Assembly (NCBI RefSeq): GCF_963576615.1
Contig: NC_088711.1
Location: 682,001 to 746,000 of the forward strand
DNA length: 64,000 bases
Reading direction: 5' to 3'
DNA from: Watersipora subatra
Lineage: Eukaryota > Bryozoa > Gymnolaemata > Cheilostomatida > Watersiporidae
In this document: positions 21,036-64,000 of the stretch, piece by piece
How positions within the stretch are numbered: position 1 is the stretch's first letter
How the letters are laid out: each line of letters begins with the position of its first letter
Notes under the pieces: generated by a model
What the model saw: the letters and a program-made list of their open reading frames with translations, nothing else
What the model was told of the DNA's origin: nothing
Database searches by the model: none
Position numbers and translations under genes: made by a program

Positions 21036-21388
21036 CTGAAACAATAACAAAATATATAGCATAATGTAGAGCCATTCGCGGCTCTGTAAATCATTTTAAT
21101 ATTGACCATACCTAGACATATACTTTTACAGAGCTGTAACTCAAATCCCATCAGACATCTTGGGAACATCATGTTGCAAACACTCCATCTAGCCGCGAAC
21201 TCATCAAAGGTGCAGTTTTGAAGAGCTAGCTCAGCTGCCATTGAGAAGTTGGCATATTGTTCACTAGAGTTGAGCCCAAAAAGCTGGTTTGGGTATGTTG
21301 TGTACGGCGATATATCACGACATTCAGGCGGCGATAAACTGCATTTCTCACTGCTGCAACAAATTAGTTAATACTATAGTAATAGTTC

Positions 21389-30400: not shown

Positions 30401-33400
30401 CCAGAGATTCTTTTGTCAAGGAGGCGAAATTAGTTCGGGGCCTTATTGCAACCAGTAGTCAGCCCAACTGTTGGGGCCTCTTGCCATTTACCCGCTGCTG
30501 AGGCTTCCCATTTGGACGACTTCTACAGATATTCCACTGACCTTCACACGCCTAACATTATAGGAATTCCTCTCGGTGGCTTCCAAAAGCAGACCTTACT
30601 CTTGCGGCAACTGTTGGACCTGCTTTGTCAGCTGCTGCACAGGCAGTGCGAGCTATTTGAGAGTCTGGTGCTGGACCACTGCAATTCGCTTTTCTGGTGC
30701 CTCCTTAACGGACCTGACGTCGACTGACTGACAGCCTTGCAGCTTAACCTAGAGGAACTCTGTCCATGCTCAGACCACATCGGTCAACGTCGGAGTCGGC
30801 ACAGCCAGCAGGTGTCGCTGTTGTCCAGCGTAGTTCACCGTGCTGCAGACCAGCTCTTTGCCAATGTCCATCCTACAAAGTGCTGGCAAGTTTCACTGAG
30901 CTCCAAGGACTAGGCGCTCTGCCAGGCAAGCATGATCCTGGATGGTAGTGACCACAACTCACCTAAAGGTACCCAATTTACAACAAGCCTGCCTGAAAAA
31001 GAGAGGCTAAAGAGGGCTCATAGCATGTCAAAGAGGGCTTGCGTGTGGCCAGCACGATCGCAGTTCTCTACCTCCTTGAAAAGCCTCTCGGGTCTGGGGC
31101 GAACTGAAAACTGGCAACCTCAAGCTAGCTGTTTGCATCTGCAACCTCCATGAAATGGCTTATAAAGTACTCGATGTCTTCCGAACCAGAACCAAAAAAG
31201 TGATCTGAATAGGTAACTCAGGGCCCGAAGGACAAACATCATTCTCTTAAGTAACTCGGCAAAACAGTCGGTAACTCAACTCCTGCTCCGAGGGCGTCTG
31301 TCGTACCTCTCAATGCCAACCCTTACGGGAAGTTGCCGATCGATAAGGAGCAGGCTGGCATTAAGCAGTGACTGCTCGCTTCTTGTGGAGTGCCACTTCT
31401 TGTAGAGACTGAATCAATGACCTCTACTGCTGCCGCCAAAGTAAAGCCGATATGAGCCGGGTCTAACCTGGTCATGGCCTAAGCTCGGGCGTCAGCAAAG
31501 ACGCCAGCCGAAATCGGGGTGCTCTGCTGGTACAATATGACATTGCACTAAATATGATATAACAAGATAAAGGACATAGCACTAAAAATGATGTAACATT
31601 AAAGATGACGTTACACTAAATAAAACATGCCAGTAAAAAAAATAAAATATTGAATATGATACAACATTAAATACAACAAAAATTGAAAAATGCTTAGTAT
31701 GATAAAATGATAAGTATGACAAAGCACCGAACACACTATAACATCATATTTGATGTGACACTAAATATTACACAACATTAAACATGATGTAACGCTAACT
31801 ATACCATGACACAAATTATGATGTGACTTATGGTTCAGAAGTGTGTGGTATGTCTAAACAAAAAAAACTGGTTAAAAATGAAGACAACATGAAACGAAAA
31901 AACTAACTATCATGCGTCGGACAATGGAAGCGCCAAAACAGAAACCATACAAATGGATGAAGATATGAAAAAAGAAAACAACGGCTGAACAAAACAAAGG
32001 GCAACAGAAATGCATATAACAAAAGATAATATGAAAAGGACCTAAAACATGTAAAACAGAAAACAGCACACATATGTACATACCATATAACCTCATCGGA
32101 GGCATCGCAACAATCATAAGTCTTGTCACATACGCTCAGCCCGTGAATACATTTTCCGTCACCGCAAGGAAACTCATCTTCTCCACACATATTCATCATG
32201 TTGTCGATAGGCTCTGACAAACATCGCTCTTCCGGTAACTTCATGCACAGCATCACCAGCTGTTCTCGCCCTTCTCCGGAGCAATACTCGTACGTAGCAT
32301 CTGCAAAATGAACAGGTGAAAATGACTAGCTAGAAATTTTTGAGACAACGAAATGTATTTTCGAAACAGTCATTACAAGAGGGCAAGATAGAAGCGTACT
32401 TAGACATGTATTTCTACAGAGCTGTAACTCGAATCCCATCAGACATCTTGGGAACATCATGTTGCAGACACCCCATTTAGCCGTTAACTCATCTATAGTA
32501 CAATTAGCCAGCGCCTTCTGAATGGTCGTCGAGAAGTTCAAATAGTCTTCTTCCGTCTCCAATTCGAAGATCTTATTTGGATAGGTGGTGTATGGAACGA
32601 TATCTTTACATTCCTCGGGCGCAGGAGAACACTTTTCATCACTTCAAAACAAACAGAAAAATCATATCGAAATGGTTGAGCTCATGCTTGTAACTTCACA
32701 GAAGTTAGTACAGAAAGCTATGAACAGTTACAGGTAGTGCGTAAATGTGAAAACACACCCATGTGAAAACCGCATTAAATAAACCTAGTCAAGTTCTGTC
32801 CATGGAGCAGAAGACAAAAAACTCGTATAAGACCATAAAGTACTCAAAAATCCGGCATATGGTTTCTACATATTACAGTGAACGCAGAACATCGAAAATA
32901 CAACTGACATCGCATCGTTTATGAGTGTAAAAATCTCAAGTAGCAAAATCACCTGCGCGCGTATCTATAAATTCACTGCAAACCTTCCAAACAATTCTTA
33001 TACATGAAGACGATGTCGTCGTAGGATAATGAATACGATTTGTTTAAAAATATAATCATTGCGTACCACATCTCGTCTGCTCCAGTCCTGCAATCATAAG
33101 TCTTGTCACATACGCTCAACCCGTGAATACATTTTCCGTCACCGCAAGGAAACTCATCTTCTCCACACATATTCATCATGTTGTCGATAGGCTCTGACAA
33201 ACATCGATCTTCCGGTAACTTCATGCACAGCATCACCAGCTGTTCTCGCCCTTCTCCGGAGCAATACTCGTACGTAGCATCTGCAAAATGAACAGGTGAA
33301 AATGACTAGCTAGAAATTTTTGAGACAACGAAATGTATTTTCGAAACAGTCATTACAAGAGGGCAAGATAGAAGCGTACTTAGACATGTATTTCTACAGA

Positions 33401-36400
33401 GCTGTAACTCGAATCCCATCAGACATCTTGGGAACATCATGTTGCAGACACCCCATTTAGCCGTTAACTCATCTATAGTACAATTAGCCAGCGCCTTCTG
33501 AATGGTCGTCGAGAAGTTCAAATAGTCTTCTTCCGTCTCCAATTCAAAGATCTTATTTGGATAGGTGGTGTATGGAACGATATCTTTACATTCCTCGGGC
33601 GCAGGAGAACACTTTTCATCACTTCAAAACAAACAGAAAAATCATATCGAAATGGTTGAGCTCATGCTTGTAACTTCACAGAAGTTAGTACAGAAAGCTA
33701 TGAACAGTTACAGGTAGTGCGTATATGTGAAAACACACCCATGTGAAAACCGCATTAAATAAACCTAGTCAAGTTCTGTCCATGGAGCAGAAGACAAAAA
33801 ACTCGTATAAGACCATAAACTACTCAAAAATCCGGCATATGGTTTCTACATATTACAGTGAACGCAGAACATCGAAAATACAACTGACATCGCATCGTTT
33901 ATGAGTGTAAAAATCTCAAGTAGCAAAATCACCTGCGCGCGTATCTATAAATTCACTGCAAACCTTCCAAACAATTCTTATACATGAAGACGATGTCGTC
34001 GTAGGATAATGAATACGATTTGTTTAAAAATATAATCATTGCGTACCACATCTCGTCTGCTCCAGTCCTGCAATCATAAGTCTTGTCACATACGCTCAAC
34101 CCGTGAATACATTTTCCGTCACCGCAAGGAAACTCATCTTCTCCACACATATTCATCATGTTGTCGATAGGCTCTGACAAACATCGCTCTTCCGGTAACT
34201 TCATGCACAGCATCACCAGCTGTTCTCGCCCTTCTCCGGAGCAATACTCGTACGTAGCATCTGCAAAATGAACAGGTGAAAATGACTAGCTAGAAATTTT
34301 TGAGACAACGAAATGTATTTTCGAAACAGTCATTACAAGAGGGCAAGATAGAAGCGTACTTAGACATGTATTTCTACAGAGCTGTAACTCGAATCCCATC
34401 AGACATCTTGGGAACATCATGTTGCAGACACCCCATTTAGCCGTTAACTCATCTATAGTACAATTAGCCAGCGCCTTCTGAATGGTCGTCGAGAAGTTCA
34501 AATAATCTTCTTCCGTCTCCAATTCAAAGATCTTATTTGGATAGGTGGTGTATGGAACGATATCTTTACATTCCTCGGGCGCAGGAGAACACTTTTCATC
34601 ACTTCAAAACAAACAGAAAAATCATATCGAAATGGTTGAGCTCATGCTTGTAACTTCACAGAAGTTAGTACAGAAAGCTATGAACAGTTACAGGTAATGC
34701 GTAAATGTGAAAACACACCCATGTGAAAACCGCATTAAATAAACCTAGTCAAGTTCTGTCCATGAAGCAGGAGACAATAAACTCGTATAAGACCATAAAG
34801 TACTCAAAAATCCGGCTTTTGGTTTCTACATATTACAGTGAACGCAGAACATCGAAAATACAACTGACATCGCATCGTTTATGAGTGTAAATATCTCAAG
34901 TAGCAAAATCACCTGCGCGCGTATCTATAAATTCACTGCAAACCTTCCAAATAATTCTTATACAAGAAGACGATGTCATCGTAAGATACTGAATACGATT
35001 TGTTTAAAAGTATAGTCATTGCGTACCACATCTCGTCTGCTCCAGTCCTGCAATCATAAGTCTTGTCACATACGCTCAGCCCGTGAATACATTTTCCGTC
35101 ACCGCAAGGAAACTCATCTTCTCCACACATATTCATCATGTTGTCGATAGGCTCTGACAAACATCGCTCTTCCGGTAACTTCATGCACAGCATCACCAGC
35201 TGTTCTCGCCCTTCTCCGGAGCAATACTCGTACGTAGCATCTGCAAAATGAACAGGTGAAAATGACTAGCTAGAAATTTTTGAGACAACGAAATGTATTT
35301 TCGAAACAGTCATTACAAGAGGGCAAGATAGAAGCGTACTTAGACATGTATTTCTACAGAGCTGTAACTCGAATCCCATCAGACATCTTGGGAACATCAT
35401 GTTGCAGACACCCCATTTAGCCGTTAACTCATCTATAGTACAATTAGCCAGCGCCTTCTGAATGGTCGTCGAGAAGTTCAAATAGTCTTCTTCCGTCTCC
35501 AATTCAAAGATCTTATTTGGATAGGTGGTGTATGGAACGATATCTTTACATTCCTCGGGCGCAGGAGAACACTTTTCATCACTTCAAAACAAACAGAAAA
35601 ATCATATCGAAATGGTTGAGCTCATGCTTGTAACTTCACAGAAGTTAGTACAGAAAGCTATGAACAGTTACAGGTAATGCGTAAATGTGAAAACACACCC
35701 ATGTGAAAACCGCATTAAATAAACCTAGTCAAGTTCTGTCCATGAAGCAGGAGACAATAAACTCGTATAAGACCATAAATTACTCAAAAATCCGGCATAT
35801 GGTTTCTACATATTACAGTGAACGCAGAACATCGAAAATACAACTGACATCGCATCGTTTATGAGTGTAAATATCTCAAGTAGCAAAATCACCTGCGCGC
35901 GTATCTATAAATTCACTGCAAACCTTCCAAACAATTCTTATACATGAAGACGATGTCGTCGTAGGATAATGAATACGATTTGTTTAAAAATATAATCATT
36001 GCGTACCACATCTCGTCTGCTCCAGTCCTGCAATCATAAGTCTTGTCACATACGCTCAACCCGTGAATACATTTTCCGTCACCGCAAGGAAACTCATCTT
36101 CTCCACACATATTCATCATGTTGTCGATAGGCTCTGACAAACATCGCTCTTCCGGTAACTTCATGCACAGCATCACCAGCTGTTCTCGCCCTTCTCCGGA
36201 GCAATACTCGTACGTAGCATCTGCAAAATGAACAGGTGAAAATGACTAGCTAGAAATTTTTGAGACAACGAAATGTATTTTCGAAACAGTCATTACAAGA
36301 GGGCAAGATAGAAGCGTACTTAGACATGTATTTCTACAGAGCTGTAACTCGAATCCCATCAGACATCTTGGGAACATCATGTTGCAGACACCCCATTTAG

Positions 36401-39400
36401 CCGTTAACTCATCTATAGTACAATTAGCCAGCGCCTTCTGAATGGTCGTCGAGAAGTTCAAATAGTCTTCTTCCGTCTCCAATTCAAAGATCTTATTTGG
36501 ATAGGTGGTGTATGGAACGATATCTTTACATTCCTCGGGCGCAGGAGAACACTTTTCATCACTTCAAAACAAACAGAAAAATCATATCGAAATGGTTGAG
36601 CTCATGCTTGTAACTTCACAGAAGTTAGTACAGAAAGCTATGAACAGTTACAGGTAATGCGTAAATGTGAAAACACACCCATGTGAAAACCGCATTAAAT
36701 AAACCTAGTCAAGTTCTGTCCATGAAGCAGGAGACAATAAACTCGTATAAGACCATAAAGTACTCAAAAATCCGGCTTTTGGTTTCTACATATTACAGTG
36801 AACGCAGAACATCGAAAATACAACTGACATCGCATCGTTTATGAGTGTAAATATCTCAAGTAGCAAAATCACCTGCGCGCGTATCTATAAATTCACTGCA
36901 AACCTTCCAAATAATTCTTATACAAGAAGACGATGTCATCGTAGGATACTGAATACGATTTGTTTAAAAGTATAGTCATTGCGTACCACATCTCGTCTGC
37001 TCCAGTCCTGCAATCATAAGTCTTGTCACATACGCTCAGCCCGTGAATACATTTTCCGTCACCGCAAGGAAACTCATCTTCTCCACACATATTCATCATG
37101 TTGTCGATAGGCTCTGACAAACATCGCTCTTCCGGTAACTTCATGCACAGCATCACCAGCTGTTCTCGCCCTTCTCCGGAGCAATACTCGTACGTAGCAT
37201 CTGCAAAATGAACAGGTGAAAATGACTAGCTAGAAATTTTTGAGACAACGAAATGTATTTTCGAAACAGTCATTACAAGAGGGCAAGATAGAAGCGTACT
37301 TAGACATGTATTTCTACAGAGCTGTAACTCGAATCCCATCAGACATCTTGGGAACATCATGTTGCAGACACCCCATTTAGCCGTTAACTCATCTATAGTA
37401 CAATTAGCCAGCGCCTTCTGAATGGTCGTCGAGAAGTTCAAATAGTCTTCTTCCGTCTCCAATTCAAAGATCTTATTTGGATAGGTGGTGTATGGAACGA
37501 TATCTTTACATTCCTCGGGCGCAGGAGAACACTTTTCATCACTTCAAAACAAACAGAAAAATCATATCGAAATGGTTGAGCTCATGCTTGTAACTTCACA
37601 GAAGTTAGTACAGAAAGCTATGAACAGTTACAGGTAGTGCGTATATGTGAAAACACACCCATGTGAAAACCGCATTAAATAAACCTAGTCAAGTTCTGTC
37701 CATGGAGCAGAAGACAAAAAACTCGTATAAGACCATAAACTACTCAAAAATCCGGCATATGGTTTCTACATATTACAGTGAACGCAGAACATCGAAAATA
37801 CAACTGACATCGCATCGTTTATGAGTGTAAAAATCTCAAGTAGCAAAATCACCTGCGCGCGTATCTATAAATTCACTGCAAACCTTCCAAACAATTCTTA
37901 TACATGAAGACGATGTCGTCGTAGGATAATGAATACGATTTGTTTAAAAATATAATCATTGCGTACCACATCTCGTCTGCTCCAGTCCTGCAATCATAAG
38001 TCTTGTCACATACGCTCAACCCGTGAATACATTTTCCGTCACCGCAAGGAAACTCATCTTCTCCACACATATTCATCATGTTGTCGATAGGCTCTGACAA
38101 ACATCGATCTTCCGGTAACTTCATGCACAGCATCACCAGCTGTTCTCGCCCTTCTCCGGAGCAATACTCGTACGTAGCATCTGCAAAATGAACAGGTGAA
38201 AATGACTAGCTAGAAATTTTTGAGACAACGAAATGTATTTTCGAAACAGTCATTACAAGAGGGCAAGATAGAAGCGTACTTAGACATGTATTTCTACAGA
38301 GCTGTAACTCGAATCCCATCAGACATCTTGGGAACATCATGTTGCAGACACCCCATTTAGCCGTTAACTCATCTATAGTACAATTAGCCAGCGCCTTCTG
38401 AATGGTCGTCGAGAAGTTCAAATAGTCTTCTTCCGTCTCCAATTCAAAGATCTTATTTGGATAGGTGGTGTATGGAACGATATCTTTACATTCCTCGGGC
38501 GCAGGAGAACACTTTTCATCACTTCAAAACAAACAGAAAAATCATATCGAAATGGTTGAGCTCATGCTTGTAACTTCACAGAAGTTAGTACAGAAAGCTA
38601 TGAACAGTTACAGGTAGTGCGTATATGTGAAAACACACCCATGTGAAAACCGCATTAAATAAACCTAGTCAAGTTCTGTCCATGGAGCAGAAGACAAAAA
38701 ACTCGTATAAGACCATAAAGTACTCAAAAATCCGGCATATGGTTTCTACATATTACAGTGAACGCAGAACATCGAAAATACAACTGCCATCGCATCGTTT
38801 ATGAGTGTAAAAATCTCAAGTAGCAAAATCACCTGCGCGCGTATCTATAAATTCACTGCAAACCTTCCAAACAATTCTTATACATGAAGACGATGTCGTC
38901 GTAGGATAATGAATACGATTTGTTTAAAAATATAATCATTGCGTACCACATCTCGTCTGCTCCAGTCCTGCAATCATAAGTCTTGTCACATACGCTCAAC
39001 CCGTGAATACATTTTCCGTCACCGCAAGGAAACTCATCTTCTCCACACATATTCATCATGTTGTCGATAGGCTCTGACAAACATCGATCTTCCGGTAACT
39101 TCATGCACAGCATCACCAGCTGTTCTCGCCCTTCTCCGGAGCAATACTCGTACGTAGCATCTGCAAAATGAACAGGTGAAATTGACTAGCTAGAAATTTT
39201 TGAGACAACGAAATGTATTTTCGAAACAGTCATTACAAGAGGGCAAGATAGAAGCGTACTTAGACATGTATTTCTACAGAGCTGTAACTCGAATCCCATC
39301 AGACATCTTGGGAACATCATGTTGCAGACACCCCATTTAGCCGTTAACTCATCTATAGTACAATTAGCCAGCGCCTTCTGAATGGTCGTCGAGAAGTTCA

Positions 39401-42400
39401 AATAATCTTCTTCCGTCTCCAATTCAAAGATCTTATTTGGATAGGTGGTGTATGGAACGATATCGTTACATTCCTCGGGTGCAGGAGAACACTTTTCATC
39501 ACTTCAAAACAAACAGAAAAATCATATCGAAATGGTTGAGCTCATGCTTGTAACTTCACAGAAGTTAGTACAGAAAGCTATGAACAGTTACAGGTAGTGC
39601 GTAAATGTGAAAACACACCCATGTGAAAACCGCATTAAATAAACCTAGTCAAGTTCTGTCCATGAAGCAGGAGACAATAAACTCGTATAAGACCATAAAG
39701 TACTCAAAAATCCGGCTTTTGGTTTCTACATATTACAGTGAACGCAGAACATCGAAAATACAACTGACATCGCATCGTTTATGAGTGTAAATATCTCAAG
39801 TAGCAAAATCACCTGCGCGCGTATCTATAAATTCACTGCAAACCTTCCAAATAATTCTTATACAAGAAGACGATGTCATCGTAGGATACTGAATACGATT
39901 TGTTTAAAAGTATAGTCATTGCGTACCACATCTCGTCTGCTCCAGTCCTGCAATCATAAGTCTTGTCACATACGCTCAGCCCGTGAATACATTTTCCGTC
40001 ACCGCAAGGAAACTCATCTTCTCCACACATATTCATCATGTTGTCGATAGGCTCTGACAAACATCGATCTTCCGGTAACTTCATGCACAGCATCACCAGC
40101 TGTTCTCGCCCTTCTCCGGAGCAATACTCGTACGTAGCATCTGCAAAATGAACAGGTGAAAATGACTAGCTAGAAATTTTTGAGACAACGAAATATATTT
40201 TCGAAACAGTCATTACAAGAGGGCAAGATAGAAGCGTACTTAGACATGTATTTCTACAGAGCTGTAACTCGAATCCCATCAGACATCTTGGGAACATCAT
40301 GTTGCAGACACCCCATTTAGCCGTTAACTCATCTATAGTACAATTAGCCAGCGCCTTCTGAATGGTCGTCGAGAAGTTCAAATAGTCTTCTTCCGTCTCC
40401 AATTCAAAGATCTTATTTGGATAGGTGGTGTATGGAACGATATCTTTACATTCCTCGGGCGCAGGAGAACACTTTTCATCACTTCAAAACAAACAGAAAA
40501 ATCATATCGAAATGGTTGAGCTCATGCTTGTAACTTCACAGAAGTTAGTACAGAAAGCTATGAACAGTTACAGGTAATGCGTAAATGTGAAAACACACCC
40601 ATGTGAAAACCGCATTAAATAAACCTAGTCAAGTTCTGTCCATGAAGCAGGAGACAATAAACTCGTATAAGACCATAAAGTACTCAAAAATCCGGCTTTT
40701 GGTTTCTACATATTACAGTGAACGCAGAACATCGAAAATACAACTGACATCGCATCGTTTATGAGTGTAAATATCTCAAGTAGCAAAATCACCTGCGCGC
40801 GTATCTATAAATTCACTGCAAACCTTCCAAACAATTCTTATACATGAAGACGATGTCGTCGTAGGATAATGAATACGATTTGTTTAAAAATATAATCATT
40901 GCGTACCACATCTCGTCTGCTCCAGTCCTGCAATCATAAGTCTTGTCACATACGCTCAACCCGTGAATACATTTTCCGTCACCGCAAGGAAACTCATCTT
41001 CTCCACACATATTCATCATGTTGTCGATAGGCTCTGACAAACATCGCTCTTCCGGTAACTTCATGCACAGCATCACCAGCTGTTCTCGCCCTTCTCCGGA
41101 GCAATACTCGTACGTAGCATCTGCAAAATGAACAGGTGAAAATGACTAGCTAGAAATTTTTGAGACAACGAAATGTATTTTCGAAACAGTCATTACAAGA
41201 GGGCAAGATAGAAGCGTACTTAGACATGTATTTCTACAGAGCTGTAACTCGAATCCCATCAGACATCTTGGGAACATCATGTTGCAGACACCCCATTTAG
41301 CCGTTAACTCATCTATAGTACAATTAGCCAGCGCCTTCTGAATGGTCGTCGAGAAGTTCAAATAATCTTCTTCCGTCTCCAATTCAAAGATCTTATTTGG
41401 ATAGGTGGTGTATGGAATGATATCTTTACATTCCTCGGGTGCAGGAGAACACTTTTCATCACTTCAAAACAAACAGAAAAATCATATCGAAATGGTTGAG
41501 CTCATGCTTGTAACTTCACAGAAGTTAGTACAGAAAGCTATGAACAGTTACAGGTAATGCGTAAATGTGAAAACACACCCATGTGAAAACCGCATTAAAT
41601 AAACCTAGTCAAGTTCTGTCCATGAAGCAGGAGACAATAAACTCGTATAAGACCATAAAGTACTCAAAAATCCGGCATATGGTTTCTACATATTACAGTG
41701 AACGCAGAACATCGAAAATACAACTGACATCGCATCGTTTATGAGTGTAAATATCTCAAGTAGCAAAATCACCTGCGCGCGTATCTATAAATTCACTGCA
41801 AACCTTCCAAATAATTCTTATACAAGAAAACGATGTCATCGTAGGATACTGAATACGATTTGTTTAAAAGTATAGTCATTGCGTACCACATCTCGTCTGC
41901 TCCAGTCCTGCAATCATAAGTCTTGTCACATACGCTCAGCCCGTGAATACATTTTCCGTCACCGCAAGGAAACTCATCTTCTCCACACATATTCATCATG
42001 TTGTCGATAGGCTCTGACAAACATCGCTCTTCCGGTAACTTCATGCACAGCATCACCAGCTGTTCTCGCCCTTCTCCGGAGCAATACTCGTACGTAGCAT
42101 CTGCAAAATGAACAGGTGAAAATGACTAGCTAGAAATTTTTGAGACAACGAAATATATTTTCGAAACAGTCATTACAAGAGGGCAAGATAGAAGCGTACT
42201 TAGACATGTATTTCTACAGAGCTGTAACTCGAATCCCATCAGACATCTTGGGAACATCATGTTGCAGACACCCCATTTAGCCGTTAACTCATCTATAGTA
42301 CAATTAGCCAGCGCCTTCTGAATGGTCGTCGAGAAGTTCAAATAGTCTTCTTCCGTCTCCAATTCAAAGATCTTATTTGGATAGGTGGTGTATGGAACGA

Positions 42401-51400: not shown

Positions 51401-54400
51401 AAACCTAGTCAAGTTCTGTCCATGAAGCAGGAGACAATAAACTCGTATAAGACCATAAAGTACTCAAAAATCCGGCATATGGTTTCTACATATTACAGTG
51501 AACGCAGAACATCGAAAATACAACTGACATCGCATCGTTTATGAGTGTAAAAATCTCAAGTAGCAAAATCACCTGCGCGCGTATCTATAAATTCACTGCA
51601 AACCTTCCAAACAATTCTTATACATGAAGACGATGTCGTCGTAGGATAATGAATACGATTTGTTTAAAAATATAATCATTGCGTACCACATCTCGTCTGC
51701 TCCAGTCCTGCAATCATAAGTCTTGTCACATACGCTCAACCCGTGAATACATTTTCCGTCACCGCAAGGAAACTCATCTTCTCCACACATATTCATCATG
51801 TTGTCGATAGGCTCTGACAAACATCGATCTTCCGGTAACTTCATGCACAGCATCACCAGCTGTTCTCGCCCTTCTCCGGAGCAATACTCGTACGTAGCAT
51901 CTGCAAAATGAACAGGTGAAAATGACTAGCTAGAAATTTTTGAGACAACGAAATGTATTTTCGAAACAGTCATTACAAGAGGGCAAGATAGAAGCGTACT
52001 TAGACATGTATTTCTACAGAGCTGTAACTCGAATCCCATCAGACATCTTGGGAACATCATGTTGCAGACACCCCATTTAGCCGTTAACTCATCTATAGTA
52101 CAATTAGCCAGCGCCTTCTGAATGGTCGTCGAGAAGTTCAAATAATCTTCTTCCGTCTCCAATTCAAAGATCTTATTTGGATAGGTGGTGTATGGAACGA
52201 TATCTTTACATTCCTCAGGCGCAGGAGAACACTTTTCATCACTTCAAAACAAACAGAAAAATCATATCGAAATGGTTGAGCTCATGCTTGTAACTTCACA
52301 GAAGTTAGTACAGAAAGCTATGAACAGTTACAGGTAGTGCGTATATGTGAAAACACACCCATGTGAAAACCGCATTAAATAAACCTAGTCAAGTTCTGTC
52401 CATGGAGCAGAAGACAAAAAACTCGTATAAGACCATAAAGTACTCAAAAATCCGGCATATGGTTTCTACATATTACAGTGAACGCAGAACATCGAAAATA
52501 CAACTGACATCGCATCGTTTATGAGTGTAAATATCTCAAGTAGCAAAATCACCTGCGCGCGTATCTATAAATTCACTGCAAACCTTCCAAACAATTCTTA
52601 TACATGAAGACGATGTCGTCGTAGGATAATGAATACGATTTGTTTAAAAATATAATCATTGCGTACCACATCTCGTCTGCTCCAGTCCTGCAATCATAAG
52701 TCTTGTCACATACGCTCAACCCGTGAATACATTTTCCGTCACCGCAAGGAAACTCATCTTCTCCACACATATTCATCATGTTGTCGATAGGCTCTGACAA
52801 ACATCGATCTTCCGGTAACTTCATGCACAGCATCACCAGCTGTTCTCGCCCTTCTCCGGAGCAATACTCGTACGTAGCATCTGCAAAATGAACAGGTGAA
52901 AATGACTAGCTAGAAATTTTTGAGACAACGAAATGTATTTTCGAAACAGTCATTACAAGAGGGCAAGATAGAAGCGTACTTAGACATGTATTTCTACAGA
53001 GCTGTAACTCGAATCCCATCAGACATCTTGGGAACATCATGTTGCAGACACCCCATTTAGCCGTTAACTCATCTATAGTACAATTAGCCAGCGCCTTCTG
53101 AATGGTCGTCGAGAAGTTCAAATAGTCTTCTTCCGTCTCCAATTCAAAGATCTTATTTGGATAGGTGGTGTATGGAACGATATCTTTACATTCCTCGGGC
53201 GCAGGAGAACACTTTTCATCACTTCAAAACAAACAGAAAAATCATATCGAAATGGTTGAGCTCATGCTTGTAACTTCACAGAAGTTAGTACAGAAAGCTA
53301 TGAACAGTTACAGGTAGTGCGTATATGTGAAAACACACCCATGTGAAAACCGCATTAAATAAACCTAGTCAAGTTCTGTCCATGAAGCAGGAGACAATAA
53401 ACTCGTATAAGACCATAAAGTACTCAAAAATCCGGCTTTTGGTTTCTACATATTACAGTGAACGCAGAACATCGAAAATACAACTGACATCGCATCGTTT
53501 ATGAGTGTAAATATCTCAAGTAGCAAAATCACCTGCGCGCGTATCTATAAATTCACTGCAAACCTTCCAAATAATTCTTATACAAGAAGACGATGTCATC
53601 GTAGGATACTGAATACGATTTGTTTAAAAGTATAGTCATTGCGTACCACATCTCGTCTGCTCCAGTCCTGCAATCATAAGTCTTGTCACATACGCTCAGC
53701 CCGTGAATACATTTTCCGTCACCGCAAGGAAACTCATCTTCTCCACACATATTCATCATGTTGTCGATAGGCTCTGACAAACATCGATCTTCCGGTAACT
53801 TCATGCACAGCATCACCAGCTGTTCTCGCCCTTCTCCGGAGCAATACTCGTACGTAGCATCTGCAAAATGAACAGGTGAAAATGACTAGCTAGAAATTTT
53901 TGAGACAACGAAATATATTTTCGAAACAGTCATTACAAGAGGGCAAGATAGAAGCGTACTTAGACATGTATTTCTACAGAGCTGTAACTCGAATCCCATC
54001 AGACATCTTGGGAACATCATGTTGCAGACACCCCATTTAGCCGTTAACTCATCTATAGTACAATTAGCCAGCGCCTTCTGAATGGTCGTCGAGAAGTTCA
54101 AATAGTCTTCTTCCGTCTCCAATTCAAAGATCTTATTTGGATAGGTGGTGTATGGAACGATATCTTTACATTCCTCGGGCGCAGGAGAACACTTTTCATC
54201 ACTTCAAAACAAACAGAAAAATCATATCGAAATGGTTGAGCTCATGCTTGTAACTTCACAGAAGTTAGTACAGAAAGCTATGAACAGTTACAGGTAATGC
54301 GTAAATGTGAAAACACACCCATGTGAAAACCGCATTAAATAAACCTAGTCAAGTTCTGTCCATGAAGCAGGAGACAATAAACTCGTATAAGACCATAAAG

Positions 54401-57400
54401 TACTCAAAAATCCGGCTTTTGGTTTCTACATATTACAGTGAACGCAGAACATCGAAAATACAACTGACATCGCATCGTTTATGAGTGTAAATATCTCAAG
54501 TAGCAAAATCACCTGCGCGCGTATCTATAAATTCACTGCAAACCTTCCAAATAATTCTTATACAAGAAGACGATGTCATCGTAGGATACTGAATACGATT
54601 TGTTTAAAAGTATAGTCATTGCGTACCACATCTCGTCTGCTCCAGTCCTGCAATCATAAGTCTTGTCACATACGCTCAGCCCGTGAATACATTTTCCGTC
54701 ACCGCAAGGAAACTCATCTTCTCCACACATATTCATCATGTTGTCGATAGGCTCTGACAAACATCGCTCTTCCGGTAACTTCATGCACAGCATCACCAGC
54801 TGTTCTCGCCCTTCTCCGGAGCAATACTCGTACGTAGCATCTGCAAAATGAACAGGTGAAAATGACTAGCTAGAAATTTTTGAGACAACGAAATGTATTT
54901 TCGAAACAGTCATTACAAGAGGGCAAGATAGAAGCGTACTTAGACATGTATTTCTACAGAGCTGTAACTCGAATCCCATCAGACATCTTGGGAACATCAT
55001 GTTGCAGACACCCCATTTAGCCGTTAACTCATCTATAGTACAATTAGCCAGCGCCTTCTGAATGGTCGTCGAGAAGTTCAAATAGTCTTCTTCCGTCTCC
55101 AATTCAAAGATCTTATTTGGATAGGTGGTGTATGGAACGATATCTTTACATTCCTCGGGCGCGGGAGAACACTTTTCATCACTTCAAAACAAACAGAAAA
55201 ATCATATCGAAATGGTTGAGCTCATGCTTGTAACTTCACAGAAGTTAGTACAGAAAGCTATGAACAGTTACAGGTAGTGCGTATATGTGAAAACACACCC
55301 ATGTGAAAACCGCATTAAATAAACCTAGTCAAGTTCTGTCCATGGAGCAGAAGACAAAAAACTCGTATAAGACCATAAACTACTCAAAAATCCGGCATAT
55401 GGTTTCTACATATTACAGTGAACGCAGAACATCGAAAATACAACTGACATCGCATCGTTTATGAGTGTAAAAATCTCAAGTAGCAAAATCACCTGCGCGC
55501 GTATCTATAAATTCACTGCAAACCTTCCAAACAATTCTTATACATGAAGACGATGTCGTCGTAGGATAATGAATACGATTTGTTTAAAAATATAATCATT
55601 GCGTACCACATCTCGTCTGCTCCAGTCCTGCAATCATAAGTCTTGTCACATACGCTCAACCCGTGAATACATTTTCCGTCACCGCAAGGAAACTCATCTT
55701 CTCCACACATATTCATCATGTTGTCGATAGGCTCTGACAAACATCGCTCTTCCGGTAACTTCATGCACAGCATCACCAGCTGTTCTCGCCCTTCTCCGGA
55801 GCAATACTCATACGTAGCATCTGCAAAATGAACAGGTGAAAATGACTAGCTAGAAATTTTTGAGACAACGAAATGTATTTTCGAAACAGTCATTACAAGA
55901 GGGCAAGATAGAAGCGTACTTAGACATGTATTTCTACAGAGCTGTAACTCGAATCCCATCAGACATCTTGGGAACATCATGTTGCAGACACCCCATTTAG
56001 CCGTTAACTCATCTATAGTACAATTAGCCAGCGCCTTCTGAATGGTCGTCGAGAAGTTCAAATAATCTTCTTCCGTCTCCAATTCAAAGATCTTATTTGG
56101 ATAGGTGGTGTATGGAATGATATCTTTACATTCCTCGGGTGCAGGAGAACACTTTTCATCACTTCAAAACAAACAGAAAAATCATATCGAAATGGTTGAG
56201 CTCATGCTTGTAACTTCACAGAAGTTAGTACAGAAAGCTATGAACAGTTACAGGTAATGCGTAAATGTGAAAACACACCCATGTGAAAACCGCATTAAAT
56301 AAACCTAGTCAAGTTCTGTCCATGAAGCAGGAGACAATAAACTCGTATAAGACCATAAAGTACTCAAAAATCCGGCATATGGTTTCTACATATTACAGTG
56401 AACGCAGAACATCGAAAATACAACTGACATCGCATCGTTTATGAGTGTAAATATCTCAAGTAGCAAAATCACCTGCGCGCGTATCTATAAATTCACTGCA
56501 AACCTTCCAAATAATTCTTATACAAGAAAACGATGTCATCGTAGGATACTGAATACGATTTGTTTAAAAGTATAGTCATTGCGTACCACATCTCGTCTGC
56601 TCCAGTCCTGCAATCATAAGTCTTGTCACATACGCTCAGCCCGTGAATACATTTTCCGTCACCGCAAGGAAACTCATCTTCTCCACACATATTCATCATG
56701 TTGTCGATAGGCTCTGACAAACATCGCTCTTCCGGTAACTTCATGCACAGCATCACCAGCTGTTCTCGCCCTTCTCCGGAGCAATACTCGTACGTAGCAT
56801 CTGCAAAATGAACAGGTGAAAATGACTAGCTAGAAATTTTTGAGACAACGAAATATATTTTCGAAACAGTCATTACAAGAGGGCAAGATAGAAGCGTACT
56901 TAGACATGTATTTCTACAGAGCTGTAACTCGAATCCCATCAGACATCTTGGGAACATCATGTTGCAGACACCCCATTTAGCCGTTAACTCATCTATAGTA
57001 CAATTAGCCAGCGCCTTCTGAATGGTCGTCGAGAAGTTCAAATAGTCTTCTTCCGTCTCCAATTCAAAGATCTTATTTGGATAGGTGGTGTATGGAACGA
57101 TATCTTTACATTCCTCGGGCGCAGGAGAACACTTTTCATCACTTCAAAACAAACAGAAAAATCGTATCGAAATGGTTGAGCTCATGCTTGTAACTTCACA
57201 GAAGTTAGTACAGAAAGCTATGAACAGTTACAGGTAGTGCGTATATGTGAAAACACACCCATGTGAAAACCGCATTAAATAAACCTAGTCAAGTTCTGTC
57301 CATGGAGCAGAAGACAAAAAACTCGTATAAGACCATAAACTACTCAAAAATCCGGCATATGGTTTCTACATATTACAGTGAACGCAGAACATCGAAAATA

Positions 57401-60400
57401 CAACTGACATCGCATCGTTTATGAGTGTAAAAATCTCAAGTAGCAAAATCACCTGCGCGCGTATCTATAAATTCACTGCAAACCTTCCAAACAATTCTTA
57501 TACATGAAGACGATGTCGTCGTAGGATAATGAATACGATTTGTTTAAAAATATAATCATTGCGTACCACATCTCGTCTGCTCCAGTCCTGCAATCATAAG
57601 TCTTGTCACATACGCTCAACCCGTGAATACATTTTCCGTCACCGCAAGGAAACTCATCTTCTCCACACATATTCATCATGTTGTCGATAGGCTCTGACAA
57701 ACATCGCTCTTCCGGTAACTTCATGCACAGCATCACCAGCTGTTCTCGCCCTTCTCCGGAGCAATACTCGTACGTAGCATCTGCAAAATGAACAGGTGAA
57801 AATGACTAGCTAGAAATTTTTGAGACAACGAAATGTATTTTCGAAACAGTCATTACAAGAGGGCAAGATAGAAGCGTACTTAGACATGTATTTCTACAGA
57901 GCTGTAACTCGAATCCCATCAGACATCTTGGGAACATCATGTTGCAGACACCCCATTTAGCCGTTAACTCATCTATAGTACAATTAGCCAGCGCCTTCTG
58001 AATGGTCGTCGAGAAGTTCAAATAATCTTCTTCCGTCTCCAATTCAAAGATCTTATTTGGATAGGTGGTGTATGGAATGATATCTTTACATTCCTCGGGT
58101 GCAGGAGAACACTTTTCATCACTTCAAAACAAACAGAAAAATCATATCGAAATGGTTGAGCTCATGCTTGTAACTTCACAGAAGTTAGTACAGAAAGCTA
58201 TGAACAGTTACAGGTAATGCGTAAATGTGAAAACACACCCATGTGAAAACCGCATTAAATAAACCTAGTCAAGTTCTGTCCATGAAGCAGGAGACAATAA
58301 ACTCGTATAAGACCATAAAGTACTCAAAAATCCGGCATATGGTTTCTACATATTACAGTGAACGCAGAACATCGAAAATACAACTGACATCGCATCGTTT
58401 ATGAGTGTAAAAATCTCAAGTAGCAAAATCACCTGCGCGCGTATCTATAAATTCACTGCAAACCTTCCAAACAATTCTTATACATGAAGACGATGTCGTC
58501 GTAGGATAATGAATACGATTTGTTTAAAAATATAATCATTGCGTACCACATCTCGTCTGCTCCAGTCCTGCAATCATAAGTCTTGTCACATACGCTCAAC
58601 CCGTGAATACATTTTCCGTCACCGCAAGGAAACTCATCTTCTCCACACATATTCATCATGTTGTCGATAGGCTCTGACAAACATCGATCTTCCGGTAACT
58701 TCATGCACAGCATCACCAGCTGTTCTCGCCCTTCTCCGGAGCAATACTCGTACGTAGCATCTGCAAAATGAACAGGTGAAAATGACTAGCTAGAAATTTT
58801 TGAGACAACGAAATGTATTTTCGAAACAGTCATTACAAGAGGGCAAGATAGAAGCGTACTTAGACATGTATTTCTACAGAGCTGTAACTCGAATCCCATC
58901 AGACATCTTGGGAACATCATGTTGCAGACACCCCATTTAGCCGTTAACTCATCTATAGTACAATTAGCCAGCGCCTTCTGAATGGTCGTCGAGAAGTTCA
59001 AATAATCTTCTTCCGTCTCCAATTCAAAGATCTTATTTGGATAGGTGGTGTATGGAACGATATCTTTACATTCCTCAGGCGCAGGAGAACACTTTTCATC
59101 ACTTCAAAACAAACAGAAAAATCATATCGAAATGGTTGAGCTCATGCTTGTAACTTCACAGAAGTTAGTACAGAAAGCTATGAACAGTTACAGGTAGTGC
59201 GTATATGTGAAAACACACCCATGTGAAAACCGCATTAAATAAACCTAGTCAAGTTCTGTCCATGGAGCAGAAGACAAAAAACTCGTATAAGACCATAAAG
59301 TACTCAAAAATCCGGCATATGGTTTCTACATATTACAGTGAACGCAGAACATCGAAAATACAACTGACATCGCATCGTTTATGAGTGTAAATATCTCAAG
59401 TAGCAAAATCACCTGCGCGCGTATCTATAAATTCACTGCAAACCTTCCAAACAATTCTTATACATGAAGACGATGTCGTCGTAGGATAATGAATACGATT
59501 TGTTTAAAAATATAATCATTGCGTACCACATCTCGTCTGCTCCAGTCCTGCAATCATAAGTCTTGTCACATACGCTCAACCCGTGAATACATTTTCCGTC
59601 ACCGCAAGGAAACTCATCTTCTCCACACATATTCATCATGTTGTCGATAGGCTCTGACAAACATCGATCTTCCGGTAACTTCATGCACAGCATCACCAGC
59701 TGTTCTCGCCCTTCTCCGGAGCAATACTCGTACGTAGCATCTGCAAAATGAACAGGTGAAAATGACTAGCTAGAAATTTTTGAGACAACGAAATGTATTT
59801 TCGAAACAGTCATTACAAGAGGGCAAGATAGAAGCGTACTTAGACATGTATTTCTACAGAGCTGTAACTCGAATCCCATCAGACATCTTGGGAACATCAT
59901 GTTGCAGACACCCCATTTAGCCGTTAACTCATCTATAGTACAATTAGCCAGCGCCTTCTGAATGGTCGTCGAGAAGTTCAAATAGTCTTCTTCCGTCTCC
60001 AATTCAAAGATCTTATTTGGATAGGTGGTGTATGGAATGATATCTTTACATTCCTCGGGCGCAGGAGAACACTTTTCATCACTTCAAAACAAACAGAAAA
60101 ATCATATCGAAATGGTTGAGCTCATGCTTGTAACTTCACAGAAGTTAGTACAGAAAGCTATGAACAGTTACAGGTAGTGCGTATATGTGAAAACACACCC
60201 ATGTGAAAACCGCATTAAATAAACCTAGTCAAGTTCTGTCCATGAAGCAGGAGACAATAAACTCGTATAAGACCATAAAGTACTCAAAAATCCGGCTTTT
60301 GGTTTCTACATATTACAGTGAACGCAGAACATCGAAAATACAACTGACATCGCATCGTTTATGAGTGTAAATATCTCAAGTAGCAAAATCACCTGCGCGC

Positions 60401-63400
60401 GTATCTATAAATTCACTGCAAACCTTCCAAATAATTCTTATACAAGAAGACGATGTCATCGTAGGATACTGAATACGATTTGTTTAAAAGTATAGTCATT
60501 GCGTACCACATCTCGTCTGCTCCAGTCCTGCAATCATAAGTCTTGTCACATACGCTCAGCCCGTGAATACATTTTCCGTCACCGCAAGGAAACTCATCTT
60601 CTCCACACATATTCATCATGTTGTCGATAGGCTCTGACAAACATCGATCTTCCGGTAACTTCATGCACAGCATCACCAGCTGTTCTCGCCCTTCTCCGGA
60701 GCAATACTCGTACGTAGCATCTGCAAAATGAACAGGTGAAAATGACTAGCTAGAAATTTTTGAGACAACGAAATATATTTTCGAAACAGTCATTACAAGA
60801 GGGCAAGATAGAAGCGTACTTAGACATGTATTTCTACAGAGCTGTAACTCGAATCCCATCAGACATCTTGGGAACATCATGTTGCAGACACCCCATTTAG
60901 CCGTTAACTCATCTATAGTACAATTAGCCAGCGCCTTCTGAATGGTCGTCGAGAAGTTCAAATAGTCTTCTTCCGTCTCCAATTCAAAGATCTTATTTGG
61001 ATAGGTGGTGTATGGAACGATATCTTTACATTCCTCGGGCGCAGGAGAACACTTTTCATCACTTCAAAACAAACAGAAAAATCATATCGAAATGGTTGAG
61101 CTCATGCTTGTAACTTCACAGAAGTTAGTACAGAAAGCTATGAACAGTTACAGGTAATGCGTAAATGTGAAAACACACCCATGTGAAAACCGCATTAAAT
61201 AAACCTAGTCAAGTTCTGTCCATGAAGCAGGAGACAATAAACTCGTATAAGACCATAAAGTACTCAAAAATCCGGCTTTTGGTTTCTACATATTACAGTG
61301 AACGCAGAACATCGAAAATACAACTGACATCGCATCGTTTATGAGTGTAAATATCTCAAGTAGCAAAATCACCTGCGCGCGTATCTATAAATTCACTGCA
61401 AACCTTCCAAATAATTCTTATACAAGAAGACGATGTCATCGTAGGATACTGAATACGATTTGTTTAAAAGTATAGTCATTGCGTACCACATCTCGTCTGC
61501 TCCAGTCCTGCAATCATAAGTCTTGTCACATACGCTCAGCCCGTGAATACATTTTCCGTCACCGCAAGGAAACTCATCTTCTCCACACATATTCATCATG
61601 TTGTCGATAGGCTCTGACAAACATCGCTCTTCCGGTAACTTCATGCACAGCATCACCAGCTGTTCTCGCCCTTCTCCGGAGCAATACTCGTACGTAGCAT
61701 CTGCAAAATGAACAGGTGAAAATGACTAGCTAGAAATTTTTGAGACAACGAAATGTATTTTCGAAACAGTCATTACAAGAGGGCAAGATAGAAGCGTACT
61801 TAGACATGTATTTCTACAGAGCTGTAACTCGAATCCCATCAGACATCTTGGGAACATCATGTTGCAGACACCCCATTTAGCCGTTAACTCATCTATAGTA
61901 CAATTAGCCAGCGCCTTCTGAATGGTCGTCGAGAAGTTCAAATAGTCTTCTTCCGTCTCCAATTCAAAGATCTTATTTGGATAGGTGGTGTATGGAACGA
62001 TATCTTTACATTCCTCGGGCGCGGGAGAACACTTTTCATCACTTCAAAACAAACAGAAAAATCATATCGAAATGGTTGAGCTCATGCTTGTAACTTCACA
62101 GAAGTTAGTACAGAAAGCTATGAACAGTTACAGGTAGTGCGTATATGTGAAAACACACCCATGTGAAAACCGCATTAAATAAACCTAGTCAAGTTCTGTC
62201 CATGGAGCAGAAGACAAAAAACTCGTATAAGACCATAAACTACTCAAAAATCCGGCATATGGTTTCTACATATTACAGTGAACGCAGAACATCGAAAATA
62301 CAACTGACATCGCATCGTTTATGAGTGTAAAAATCTCAAGTAGCAAAATCACCTGCGCGCGTATCTATAAATTCACTGCAAACCTTCCAAACAATTCTTA
62401 TACATGAAGACGATGTCGTCGTAGGATAATGAATACGATTTGTTTAAAAATATAATCATTGCGTACCACATCTCGTCTGCTCCAGTCCTGCAATCATAAG
62501 TCTTGTCACATACGCTCAACCCGTGAATACATTTTCCGTCACCGCAAGGAAACTCATCTTCTCCACACATATTCATCATGTTGTCGATAGGCTCTGACAA
62601 ACATCGCTCTTCCGGTAACTTCATGCACAGCATCACCAGCTGTTCTCGCCCTTCTCCGGAGCAATACTCATACGTAGCATCTGCAAAATGAACAGGTGAA
62701 AATGACTAGCTAGAAATTTTTGAGACAACGAAATGTATTTTCGAAACAGTCATTACAAGAGGGCAAGATAGAAGCGTACTTAGACATGTATTTCTACAGA
62801 GCTGTAACTCGAATCCCATCAGACATCTTGGGAACATCATGTTGCAGACACCCCATTTAGCCGTTAACTCATCTATAGTACAATTAGCCAGCGCCTTCTG
62901 AATGGTCGTCGAGAAGTTCAAATAATCTTCTTCCGTCTCCAATTCAAAGATCTTATTTGGATAGGTGGTGTATGGAATGATATCTTTACATTCCTCGGGT
63001 GCAGGAGAACACTTTTCATCACTTCAAAACAAACAGAAAAATCATATCGAAATGGTTGAGCTCATGCTTGTAACTTCACAGAAGTTAGTACAGAAAGCTA
63101 TGAACAGTTACAGGTAATGCGTAAATGTGAAAACACACCCATGTGAAAACCGCATTAAATAAACCTAGTCAAGTTCTGTCCATGAAGCAGGAGACAATAA
63201 ACTCGTATAAGACCATAAAGTACTCAAAAATCCGGCATATGGTTTCTACATATTACAGTGAACGCAGAACATCGAAAATACAACTGACATCGCATCGTTT
63301 ATGAGTGTAAATATCTCAAGTAGCAAAATCACCTGCGCGCGTATCTATAAATTCACTGCAAACCTTCCAAATAATTCTTATACAAGAAAACGATGTCATC

Positions 63401-64000
63401 GTAGGATACTGAATACGATTTGTTTAAAAGTATAGTCATTGCGTACCACATCTCGTCTGCTCCAGTCCTGCAATCATAAGTCTTGTCACATACGCTCAGC
63501 CCGTGAATACATTTTCCGTCACCGCAAGGAAACTCATCTTCTCCACACATATTCATCATGTTGTCGATAGGCTCTGACAAACATCGCTCTTCCGGTAACT
63601 TCATGCACAGCATCACCAGCTGTTCTCGCCCTTCTCCGGAGCAATACTCGTACGTAGCATCTGCAAAATGAACAGGTGAAAATGACTAGCTAGAAATTTT
63701 TGAGACAACGAAATATATTTTCGAAACAGTCATTACAAGAGGGCAAGATAGAAGCGTACTTAGACATGTATTTCTACAGAGCTGTAACTCGAATCCCATC
63801 AGACATCTTGGGAACATCATGTTGCAGACACCCCATTTAGCCGTTAACTCATCTATAGTACAATTAGCCAGCGCCTTCTGAATGGTCGTCGAGAAGTTCA
63901 AATAGTCTTCTTCCGTCTCCAATTCAAAGATCTTATTTGGATAGGTGGTGTATGGAACGATATCTTTACATTCCTCGGGCGCAGGAGAACACTTTTCATC
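20968..64000 (-). CDS. Giant tandem frizzled-CRD/LDLa repeat protein gene (5' end off window)
   Basis: Transcribed right to left. The repeating cassette is an Fz exon (242 nt, phase 2 to phase 1) and an Fz-end/LDLa exon (214 or 217 nt, phase 1 to phase 2). Fz exons lie at 32400+980k to 32641+980k (k=0-32, the last cut by the edge); LDLa exons at 33067+980k to 33280+980k (k=0-31), plus 32084-32300. Older pieces follow at 22476-22717, 22160-22376 and 21112-21350, then a possible stop exon at 20968-21035. Each 152-residue unit has ten Fz cysteines (with the hallmark YTTYPN) and six LDLa cysteines, plus N-glycosylation sequons NFS, NCT and NAT. The window alone encodes about 5,000 residues. Established: Fz CRDs bind Wnts and lipids, LDLa modules bind Ca2+ and proteins, and both occur together in corin and MFRP. 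Inferred: one very long secreted or membrane protein. No signal peptide, TM or protease domain is in the window. Confidence 0.8.
21112..21350 (-). CDS. Fz exon, most diverged downstream copy
   Basis: 239 nt, phase 2 in and phase 1 out. Reads [20 protein letters not shown], then [16 protein letters not shown], and ends [20 protein letters not shown]. All seven cysteines encoded by this exon type are kept. Acceptor GCAGCAG, donor GTATGG. It differs from the array copies at many residues, so it predates the array expansion. Confidence 0.85.
21386..21467. repeat. (TA)n-rich microsatellite
   Basis: Imperfect TA/TATC run immediately before Helitron-like copy C; a second short TA run follows that copy at 21908-21922. 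Possibly one target tract split by the insertion. Confidence 0.9.
21468..21907 (+). mobile_element. Helitron-like non-autonomous element, copy C
   Basis: Starts TCTCAAAGTCCGTGTGCTGG and ends ACATGCAACGCCGGG, 8-9 bases, CTAG before a T: the same family as the pair at 13.6-14.3 kb. On the - strand 21554-21612 it holds a tRNA-like segment, A-box-like TAGTCTAGTGG and B-box-like GAGATCGAATCC about 45 bases apart. It lies in an intron of the Fz/LDLa gene between 21351 and 22159. Confidence 0.72.
22160..22376 (-). CDS. Fz-end/LDLa exon of the isolated downstream unit
   Basis: 217 nt. Begins [20 protein letters not shown] as in the array, then a diverged LDLa: [31 protein letters not shown] and TG|T for the sixth Cys. 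The C-terminal Ca2+ motif is weak (YSGKDE instead of D-x-S-D-E). Donor GTAAGG. Confidence 0.85.
22476..22717 (-). CDS. Fz exon of the isolated downstream unit
   Basis: 242 nt, nearly identical to array copies; the visible protein change is IDELTAK to IDEFTAK. The 3'-flanking intron (22718 on) is the array intron, so this unit was once contiguous with the array. Confidence 0.9.
22934..22984 (-). pseudogene. Truncated Fz exon fragment at a recombination junction
   Basis: Encodes only [17 protein letters not shown] after an intact TAG|T acceptor. At TATGG (22934-22938) the Fz exon is joined directly to array intron sequence. The same five bases occur in both parents, 713 bp apart in a normal unit, which implies a microhomology-mediated or unequal-crossover deletion of the rest of the Fz exon and one LDLa exon. 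Included in the mRNA it would have no normal donor, so it is presumably skipped. Confidence 0.8.
22985..25040. other. AT-rich intron sequence with local duplications
   Basis: Contains a 34-bp unit x 3 at 23671-23768 (TGTCATACAGCCCACGACCA and onward) and a direct duplication of about 190 bp (about 23886-24094 and 24148-24332, sharing the stretch that ends CATAGCTAACAATATCAAGA). The flanking sequence carries nothing recognised. Confidence 0.8.
25040..31530 (-). mobile_element. Ty3/Gypsy LTR-retrotransposon fossil
   Basis: A GC-richer island in AT-rich intron, on the - strand. In transcription order it shows a gag-like region (about 30.4-30.0 kb), an aspartic-protease-like region (about 29.6-29.3 kb), reverse transcriptase (about 28.6-28.2 kb), the RT/RNase H junction (about 28.2-27.9 kb), integrase zinc-binding (about 27.2-26.9 kb) and catalytic core (about 26.9-26.7 kb), and further remnant coding without a recognised domain (about 26.2-25.2 kb). 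PR-RT-RH-INT order marks Ty3/Gypsy. It is clearly broken, with probably ten or more interruptions. I could not recognise matching LTRs, so the ends are approximate and it cannot be dated from LTR divergence; it looks old. It lies in an intron of the Fz/LDLa gene, in the same orientation. Confidence 0.8.
31531..32083. other. Degenerate AT-rich repeat and intron edge
   Basis: 31540-31830 is made of decayed short units around GATGTAACACTAAATA. 31840-32083 is unique sequence next to the array's downstream end, with no other feature seen. Confidence 0.6.
32084..32300 (-). CDS. Terminal LDLa exon of the array, variant with intact Ca2+ box
   Basis: 217 nt. Identical to array exons up to VCDKTYDC, then CDASDEVI and TG|T, instead of RTGADEM and TG|T. 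CDASDE restores the canonical D-x-S-D-E calcium-binding signature of LDLa modules. Donor GTATGT. Phase 2 out, compatible with the Fz exon at 22717 across a 9.4-kb intron. Confidence 0.88.
32400..32641 (-). CDS. Fz exon, array unit k=0 (prototype)
   Basis: Starts in phase 2 (T completes Cys from the LDLa exon): [80 protein letters not shown], then A in phase 1. Seven of the ten Fz cysteines and the Y-x2-T-x2-PN signature are here. Acceptor TTTTGAAG, donor GTACGC. 32 further copies follow at 980-bp steps. Confidence 0.92.
33067..33280 (-). CDS. Fz-end/LDLa exon, array unit k=0 (prototype)
   Basis: Asn completed across the junction makes NAT; then [26 protein letters not shown] ends the Fz domain, SEPIDNMMN links, and [34 protein letters not shown] plus TG|T form LDLa. 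The Glu/Asp choice at PE[ED]RC varies between units. The calcium box is degenerate (RTGADE; canonical x-D-x-S-D-E). Acceptor TTTTGCAG, donor GTACGC. 31 further copies follow at 980-bp steps. Confidence 0.92.
43753..49632 (-). repeat. Three-unit higher-order repeat (2,940 bp x 2)
   Basis: 43753-46692 and 46693-49632 share private variants 2,940 bp apart: TAACATCACA at 44451/47391, ACTTGTATAC at 45561/48501, and the unusual intron version at about 44760/47700 (TTCAAGAAGATGATGTC). This is a duplication of three whole units. Confidence 0.85.
51593..64000 (-). repeat. Seven-unit higher-order repeat (6,860 bp, 1.8 copies)
   Basis: 51593-58452 and 58453-64000 repeat the same unit-type order. Private variants recur exactly 6,860 bp apart: GCGCGGGAG at 55161/62021, AATACTCATACG at 55801/62661, TACAAGAAAACG at 56521/63381. 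At least one difference exists (c at 53178, t at 60038). Confidence 0.88.
63760..64000 (-). CDS. Fz exon, last unit, cut by window edge
   Basis: Copy k=32. Only the acceptor-side last base (expected at 64001) is missing. The gene therefore continues to the right with more units or its 5' part. Confidence 0.9.

Follow-up and report, generated by a model that had tools for sequence, protein, structure and literature searches.

A predicted giant gene of tandem frizzled-like CRD and LDLa units in the bryozoan Watersipora subatra

The window analysed here is a 64-kb stretch of the Watersipora subatra genome (contig NC_088711.1, positions 682,001 to 746,000). It contains a tandem array on the minus strand (32642..64000), which is composed of 31 complete 980-bp units, with tops from 33621 to 63021, and a unit cut at the right edge (63022-64000, minus strand; 979 of 980 bases). 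The leftmost array unit (32084..32641, minus strand) has exon A at 32400-32641 and exon B at 32084-32300. The initial annotation had proposed at least 33 in-frame, near-identical two-exon units in this region, and the present analysis confirms it: the 980-bp period is exact, and no stop was found in any of the 33 exon pairs. The count of 33 stands with two qualifications, as the leftmost unit has both exons but is followed by a different intron, and the rightmost one lacks one base. In the leftmost unit, the end of the LDLa and the following intron are unlike the array, and the donor is GTATGT. Over 31001-64000, 96% of the positions matched at lags of 980, 1960, 2940 and 3920, and at most 30% at all other lags tested (200-3999). 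A BLAST search with the unit 33306-34285 revealed other full-length copies to the right edge of the window, which share 98.1-99.9% identity and are each exactly 980 bp. Not a single indel separates the 980-bp units of the array.

In each unit, read on the minus strand, a 242-nt exon A and a 214-nt exon B are separated by intron 1 of 99 nt and followed by intron 2 of 425 nt. For example, exon A at 33380..33621 (minus strand) encodes cysteines 1-7 of a CRD, and is entered in phase 2 and left in phase 1; exon B of the same unit (33067..33280, minus strand) encodes CRD cysteines 8-10 and the LDLa. The two exons sum to 456 nt, or 152 amino acids, so that the reading frame carries over from each unit to the next. 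The predicted frame is the only open frame of the spliced unit; the other five contain 10-26 stops per two joined units. A random open frame of 152 codons would arise with a probability of about 5e-5 at 40% GC, a figure that does not multiply over the units because they are near-copies. Since the gene lies on the minus strand, the right edge of the window is its 5' side. A set of independent single-unit genes was ruled out: every unit is entered in phase 2, the exons connect one unit to its neighbour, and the codon of the sixth LDLa cysteine is interrupted by the next intron, so that this residue is split between units.

The left limit of 32084 given by the initial annotation proved to be the end of the array only, and the gene model continues as far as 19616, where it ends in a stop. 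In the left half of the window, a translated search revealed a further unit, a diverged exon A, a 17-residue exon stub and part of the last exon (E 3.7e-7). The additional unit (22160..22717, minus strand; exon A 22476-22717, exon B 22160-22376) is in frame, and the second half of its LDLa is diverged. At this locus (22.2-22.9 kb), BLAST with an array unit matched 537 bp at 96.5% identity and 181 bp at 97.2%, with weaker pieces adjoining. A 53-bp stub (22934..22986, minus strand) joins the first bases of exon A to the middle of intron 2, and is probably the remnant of a deleted unit. Downstream are a diverged exon A of a terminal CRD (21112..21350, minus strand; 239 nt) and the terminal exon (19616..19731, minus strand), which encodes CRD cysteines 8-10 without an LDLa and ends in a stop codon. 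The homology of this last exon (19616-19731) to the array led to the rejection of an alternative 3' end, which would have stopped near 20.97 kb.

The visible model comprises 70 exons and 15,864 nt, and forms one open frame of 5,287 residues with a single stop, located at the end; its 5' side is cut by the window edge. The consensus splice sites of the initial annotation were borne out at every junction of the model, with GT-AG in 69 of 69 introns. The exons are predicted to be spliced into one messenger. The same annotation had placed any anchor or enzyme domain out of view. This holds for the 5' end, which lies beyond the window, but not for the 3' end, which is inside it: the visible C-terminus has neither a transmembrane-like segment nor, in Pfam scans, an enzyme domain. 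No protease or CUB domain was found in the Pfam scans made, and no transmembrane-like stretch is present in the visible part (the highest mean hydropathy over 19 residues of the visible chain is 0.97). Corin and MFRP are type II proteins, with the anchor near the N-terminus.

A predicted intron of 9.4 kb (22718..32083, minus strand) separates the array from the additional unit. It contains a broken Ty3/gypsy-like retroelement (26665-28645) on the minus strand, the same strand as the gene. The pieces, all on the minus strand, are a reverse transcriptase (RT; 28214-28645), an RT/RNase H (27966-28178), an integrase zinc domain (26940-27284) and an integrase core (26665-26949), the last of which is below the cut-off. 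They follow the Ty3/gypsy order, with broken frames. No long terminal repeats were found, as the direct repeats of at least 40 bp within 22900-32400 lie close together, at spacings of 238 and 34 bp, and do not flank the element.

Other features were observed in the left part of the window. A motif search found twenty Gly-X-Y runs at 2451-15976, nineteen of them on the plus strand, and 11 of these 19 are exactly 54 or 108 bp; two Gly-X-Y stretches match Pfam Collagen. The runs probably represent exons of at least one collagen gene, which would converge with the CRD-LDLa gene. The left third of the window is also rich in minisatellites, which lie within the collagen region and beside it (319-815, 1445-2053, 3021-3363, 4144-4611, 6042-6542, 7495-7860, 17181-18259 and 19783-20230); the one at 17181-18259 is composed of 25 copies of a 43-bp unit. 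Rfam and tRNA scans of the 64-kb window were empty.

The variation among the units was compared between exons and introns. The 31 complete units have 35 variable columns, including 9 of 456 in exons and 26 of 524 in introns (Fisher P=0.015), and 8 exon and 23 intron columns when single-unit variants are left out (P=0.027); these and the following P-values for constraint are too small, because the variants are linked and the units are not independent, whereas their direction is consistent. Six of the nine exon variants are synonymous, compared with 23% expected (P=0.006); the other three change the residue (V/I, D/E and one K/N). Relative to the array consensus, the 22-kb unit has changes in 5 of 373 columns of the exons and in 13 of 320 of the introns (P=0.03). 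For intron 2, this count covers the final 221 bases, and for exon B it omits the final 83, with the cut within exon B chosen after the start of the divergence was seen. The omitted 83 bases, where the LDLa is diverged, contain 32 differences without gaps, and the exon is 3 nt longer. Less variable exons and mostly synonymous changes suggest that the exons are under constraint.

These counts bear on the reading of the array as a coding-derived satellite or a decaying part of a gene, in which the cassette was amplified neutrally in or beside the gene and little of it enters the mature messenger. The near-identity, the exact period and the many minisatellites nearby would fit such an origin, as would the broken exon stub and the broken retroelement in the 3' part. 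However, there is no stop in 33 units, no length change in the array and no loss of a splice dinucleotide in any of the 69 introns; moreover, the exons vary less than the introns, mostly by synonymous changes, and the 22-kb unit shows the same bias. This evidence weakens the satellite origin, which is regarded as unlikely, although recent homogenisation alone could also keep the units intact.

The LDLa identity claimed by the initial annotation was supported by a Pfam match of PF00057 in one array unit (35.1 bits against the curated cut-off of 24.1, E 1.5e-8). LDL receptor repeats also ranked at the top of the PDB search, among the best 60 of 66 matches. Six cysteines and an acidic calcium cage (D, D, D, E) keep their spacing in all seven distinct translations, which cover all 33 array units (compared by eye); the cage positions are those of LDLR repeat 5. 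Two units depart from this pattern. The leftmost array unit carries an extra, seventh cysteine in its LDLa (32084-32118), which is possibly free for a bond to another chain, and in the LDLa of the 22-kb unit N replaces one calcium-binding D. In both outer units, the similarity to the array stops within the second half of the LDLa (22160-22245 and 32084-32111). The break within the same domain of both units suggests that exchange tracts end there. Three further Pfam results came from a four-unit concatemer. Its LDLa match (E 2.9e-30) was set aside, being inflated by the addition of repeated matches. The match to DUF3822 (28.5 bits, cut-off 24.9) is chance-like, one weak short match summed four times; in a single unit it has an E of 0.14-0.23 over 31-32 residues. 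The match to Mor (25.3 bits, cut-off 24.9) is likewise chance-like, and is absent from the single-unit matches.

The frizzled CRD of the initial annotation was upheld in part. Ten cysteines in frizzled order are present, and the terminal CRD matches PF01392 below the curated cut-off (24.5 bits against 32.1, E 4.2e-5, profile positions 7-102 of 110); whereas for an array copy no match to PF01392 was listed at E up to 10. The terminal CRD is 57% identical to the array CRD. Its score was 20.1 bits with the wrong last exon and rose to 24.5 bits with the last exon found by array homology. A 255-residue piece that combined the 22-kb unit with this wrong version of the terminal CRD gave no Fz match. 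The cysteine spacing of the array and terminal CRD is 6,35,11,6,8,3,7,11,7, compared with 7,36,8,6,9,3,6,16,11 in Frizzled-2. The last part of the CRD is therefore shortened here, the stretch of cysteines 8-10 being shorter than in Frizzled-2, and the G..WP segment common to five Fz CRDs used for comparison is missing.

Other comparisons gave mixed results. When each CRD was shuffled 1000 times around fixed cysteines, the alignment to the Frizzled-2 CRD was as good as that of the real sequence in 1 shuffle of the terminal CRD and in 11 of the array copy. The hhalign comparison with the five Fz CRDs gave an E of 0.0029, with a probability of only 10.6%. No frizzled chain was found among the best 60 of 66 matches of the first PDB search, or in the PDB searches with the terminal CRD or a two-copy profile (2 matches). 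The AlphaFold model of exon A only (80 residues, with the CRD incomplete) was poor, with a mean pLDDT of 49. The CRD would thus be a divergent, shortened frizzled-like domain, and its frizzled identity is less certain than first claimed.

The initial annotation had also called the polymer previously undescribed. An exact-word search of the open-access literature, in which absence is weak evidence, found no report of a polymeric Fz/LDLa protein, and this part of the claim is kept; the genetic design itself is known, being LPA-like. No Fz/LDLa chain is described in the available portions of PMC12716839, PMC6386478, PMC3927609, PMC8242945 and PMC13228809. Relatives were also searched for in viral contigs (5 stretches fit the pattern) and in prokaryote genome contigs (16 stretches), and none was confirmed in either set, in line with an animal origin of the gene.

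The nearest genomic design is the kringle IV type 2 (KIV-2) repeat of LPA. According to the available part of the source, a two-exon cassette encodes one kringle in frame there, with up to 40 repeats per allele, and the KIV-2 subtypes are nearly identical, being marked by three synonymous and more than 100 intronic variants (PMC11201333). Both loci have near-identical, in-frame, multi-exon units within one gene, here at the DNA level. They differ in the domains encoded (CRD and LDLa instead of kringles), in the unit size (0.98 kb here, about 5.6 kb in LPA), and in the six-exon protease domain of LPA, none of which is seen in the visible model.

Some proteins share parts of the domain composition. 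Corin also has frizzled-like and LDL-receptor repeats in one extracellular chain; whereas it contains two frizzled-like domains, eight LDLR repeats, a scavenger-like domain, a serine protease and a membrane anchor, and, as far as the available text of the source describes it, lacks the 1:1 alternation in an array (PMC6981738). MFRP combines an LDLa with a C-terminal frizzled-type CRD, but is described in the excerpted source as a type II membrane protein with two CUB domains and a single CRD (PMC4214712). DMBT1 (salivary agglutinin) resembles the predicted chain in its tandem cysteine-rich domains, and is secreted, with a domain number that varies by allele (excerpts of PMC5435793 and PMC9038570); it belongs to another family, with 7 to 21 SRCR domains per allele (same part of PMC9038570). 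In the mineral matrix of red coral, two uncharacterised proteins are labelled only 'Frizzled domain' in the portion of PMC7853314 available; these may be a lead for a matrix role, and do not match the chain described here.

With moderate confidence, the locus is read as one giant gene, in which at least 34 CRD-LDLa units and a C-terminal CRD would form a multivalent extracellular binder, encoded by a repeat like that of LPA kringle IV-2. The predicted chain has 5,287 visible residues, 555 of them cysteines, with 105 N-glycosylation sequons and a mass of about 600 kDa before sugars. A single unit has 10 cysteines in its CRD and 6 in its LDLa, 16 in total, with three sequons and a pI of 4.3. Judging from the two families, each unit would fold into two compact disulfide domains joined by short linkers, and the LDLa would be stabilised by calcium; the three sequons per unit point to a glycosylated, acidic, extracellular chain. 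The repeated CRD and LDLa faces might bind one type of ligand, such as a lipid-bearing protein, a lipoprotein or a surface particle. The affinity of a single site would be weak and the multivalent affinity strong, growing with the number of units. The site of action might be the matrix, mucus or body fluid. A further step is more tentative: the chain could represent a new class of giant extracellular polymers, built from at least 34 modules and of allele-dependent length, which would bind lipids or particles multivalently. It would then be a frizzled-family counterpart of apolipoprotein(a) or DMBT1.

Two alternative roles were considered for the protein. A glycoprotein that agglutinates microbes or particles, acting as DMBT1 does with its repeated SRCR domains, would share the logic of tandem cysteine-rich domains, and the DMBT1 domain number alters bacterial binding (excerpts of PMC5435793 and PMC9038570). 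However, the domains here differ from those of DMBT1, and the units are conserved instead of diversified, with residue changes in 3 of 9 exon variants; such a role is rather improbable. Even less probable is a polymeric Wnt sink, in which the repeated CRDs would bind lipid-modified Wnt in the manner of a secreted frizzled-related protein with many binding sites. The ten cysteines in frizzled order and the Pfam Fz match of the terminal CRD agree with it; whereas the CRD is divergent, with the short stretch of cysteines 8-10 relative to Frizzled-2 and the missing G..WP segment, and Fz domains also occur in proteins that are not Wnt receptors, including collagen XVIII, carboxypeptidase Z and corin (available part of PMC6386478).

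Among the 32 units compared, 24 distinct haplotypes were found, which are mosaic and block-duplicated, and all four gametes are present at 120 of 435 testable site pairs. At offsets of 1-19 units, identical units occur at 3 (2/29), 7 (5/25) and 15 (1/17). An assembly expansion, in which the assembler repeated a true locus of a few units, and which the initial annotation had named as a refuting case, might account for the two longest exact self-matches, which span 3,962 bp at a distance of 7 units and 3,532 bp at a distance of 3. However, an assembler loop would copy a block unchanged, and not yield 24 distinct haplotypes among 32 units in mosaic order, and the longest exact repeat (<4 kb) is below ordinary long-read length, so that its simple form is countered and an expansion is very unlikely. 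A small miscount of the 3- or 7-unit blocks is possible. The block duplication and mixing fit unequal crossing-over better than an assembler loop. Unequal crossing-over together with gene conversion would homogenise the units and change their number from one allele to another; the block duplications within this one sequence make it likely that the copy number differs between alleles.

Frizzled-type CRDs are best known as binding domains of receptors and corin-like proteins, where they occur in one or two copies. If the giant-gene reading is true, the CRD module would also be usable as a polymer, with its binding strength set by the copy number. Such a protein could hold its target through many simultaneous contacts, and individuals may differ in its length. 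The locus is a clean natural record of two-exon cassettes that were multiplied and homogenised with the frame kept, and is comparable in this to the LPA repeat, which is of medical importance.
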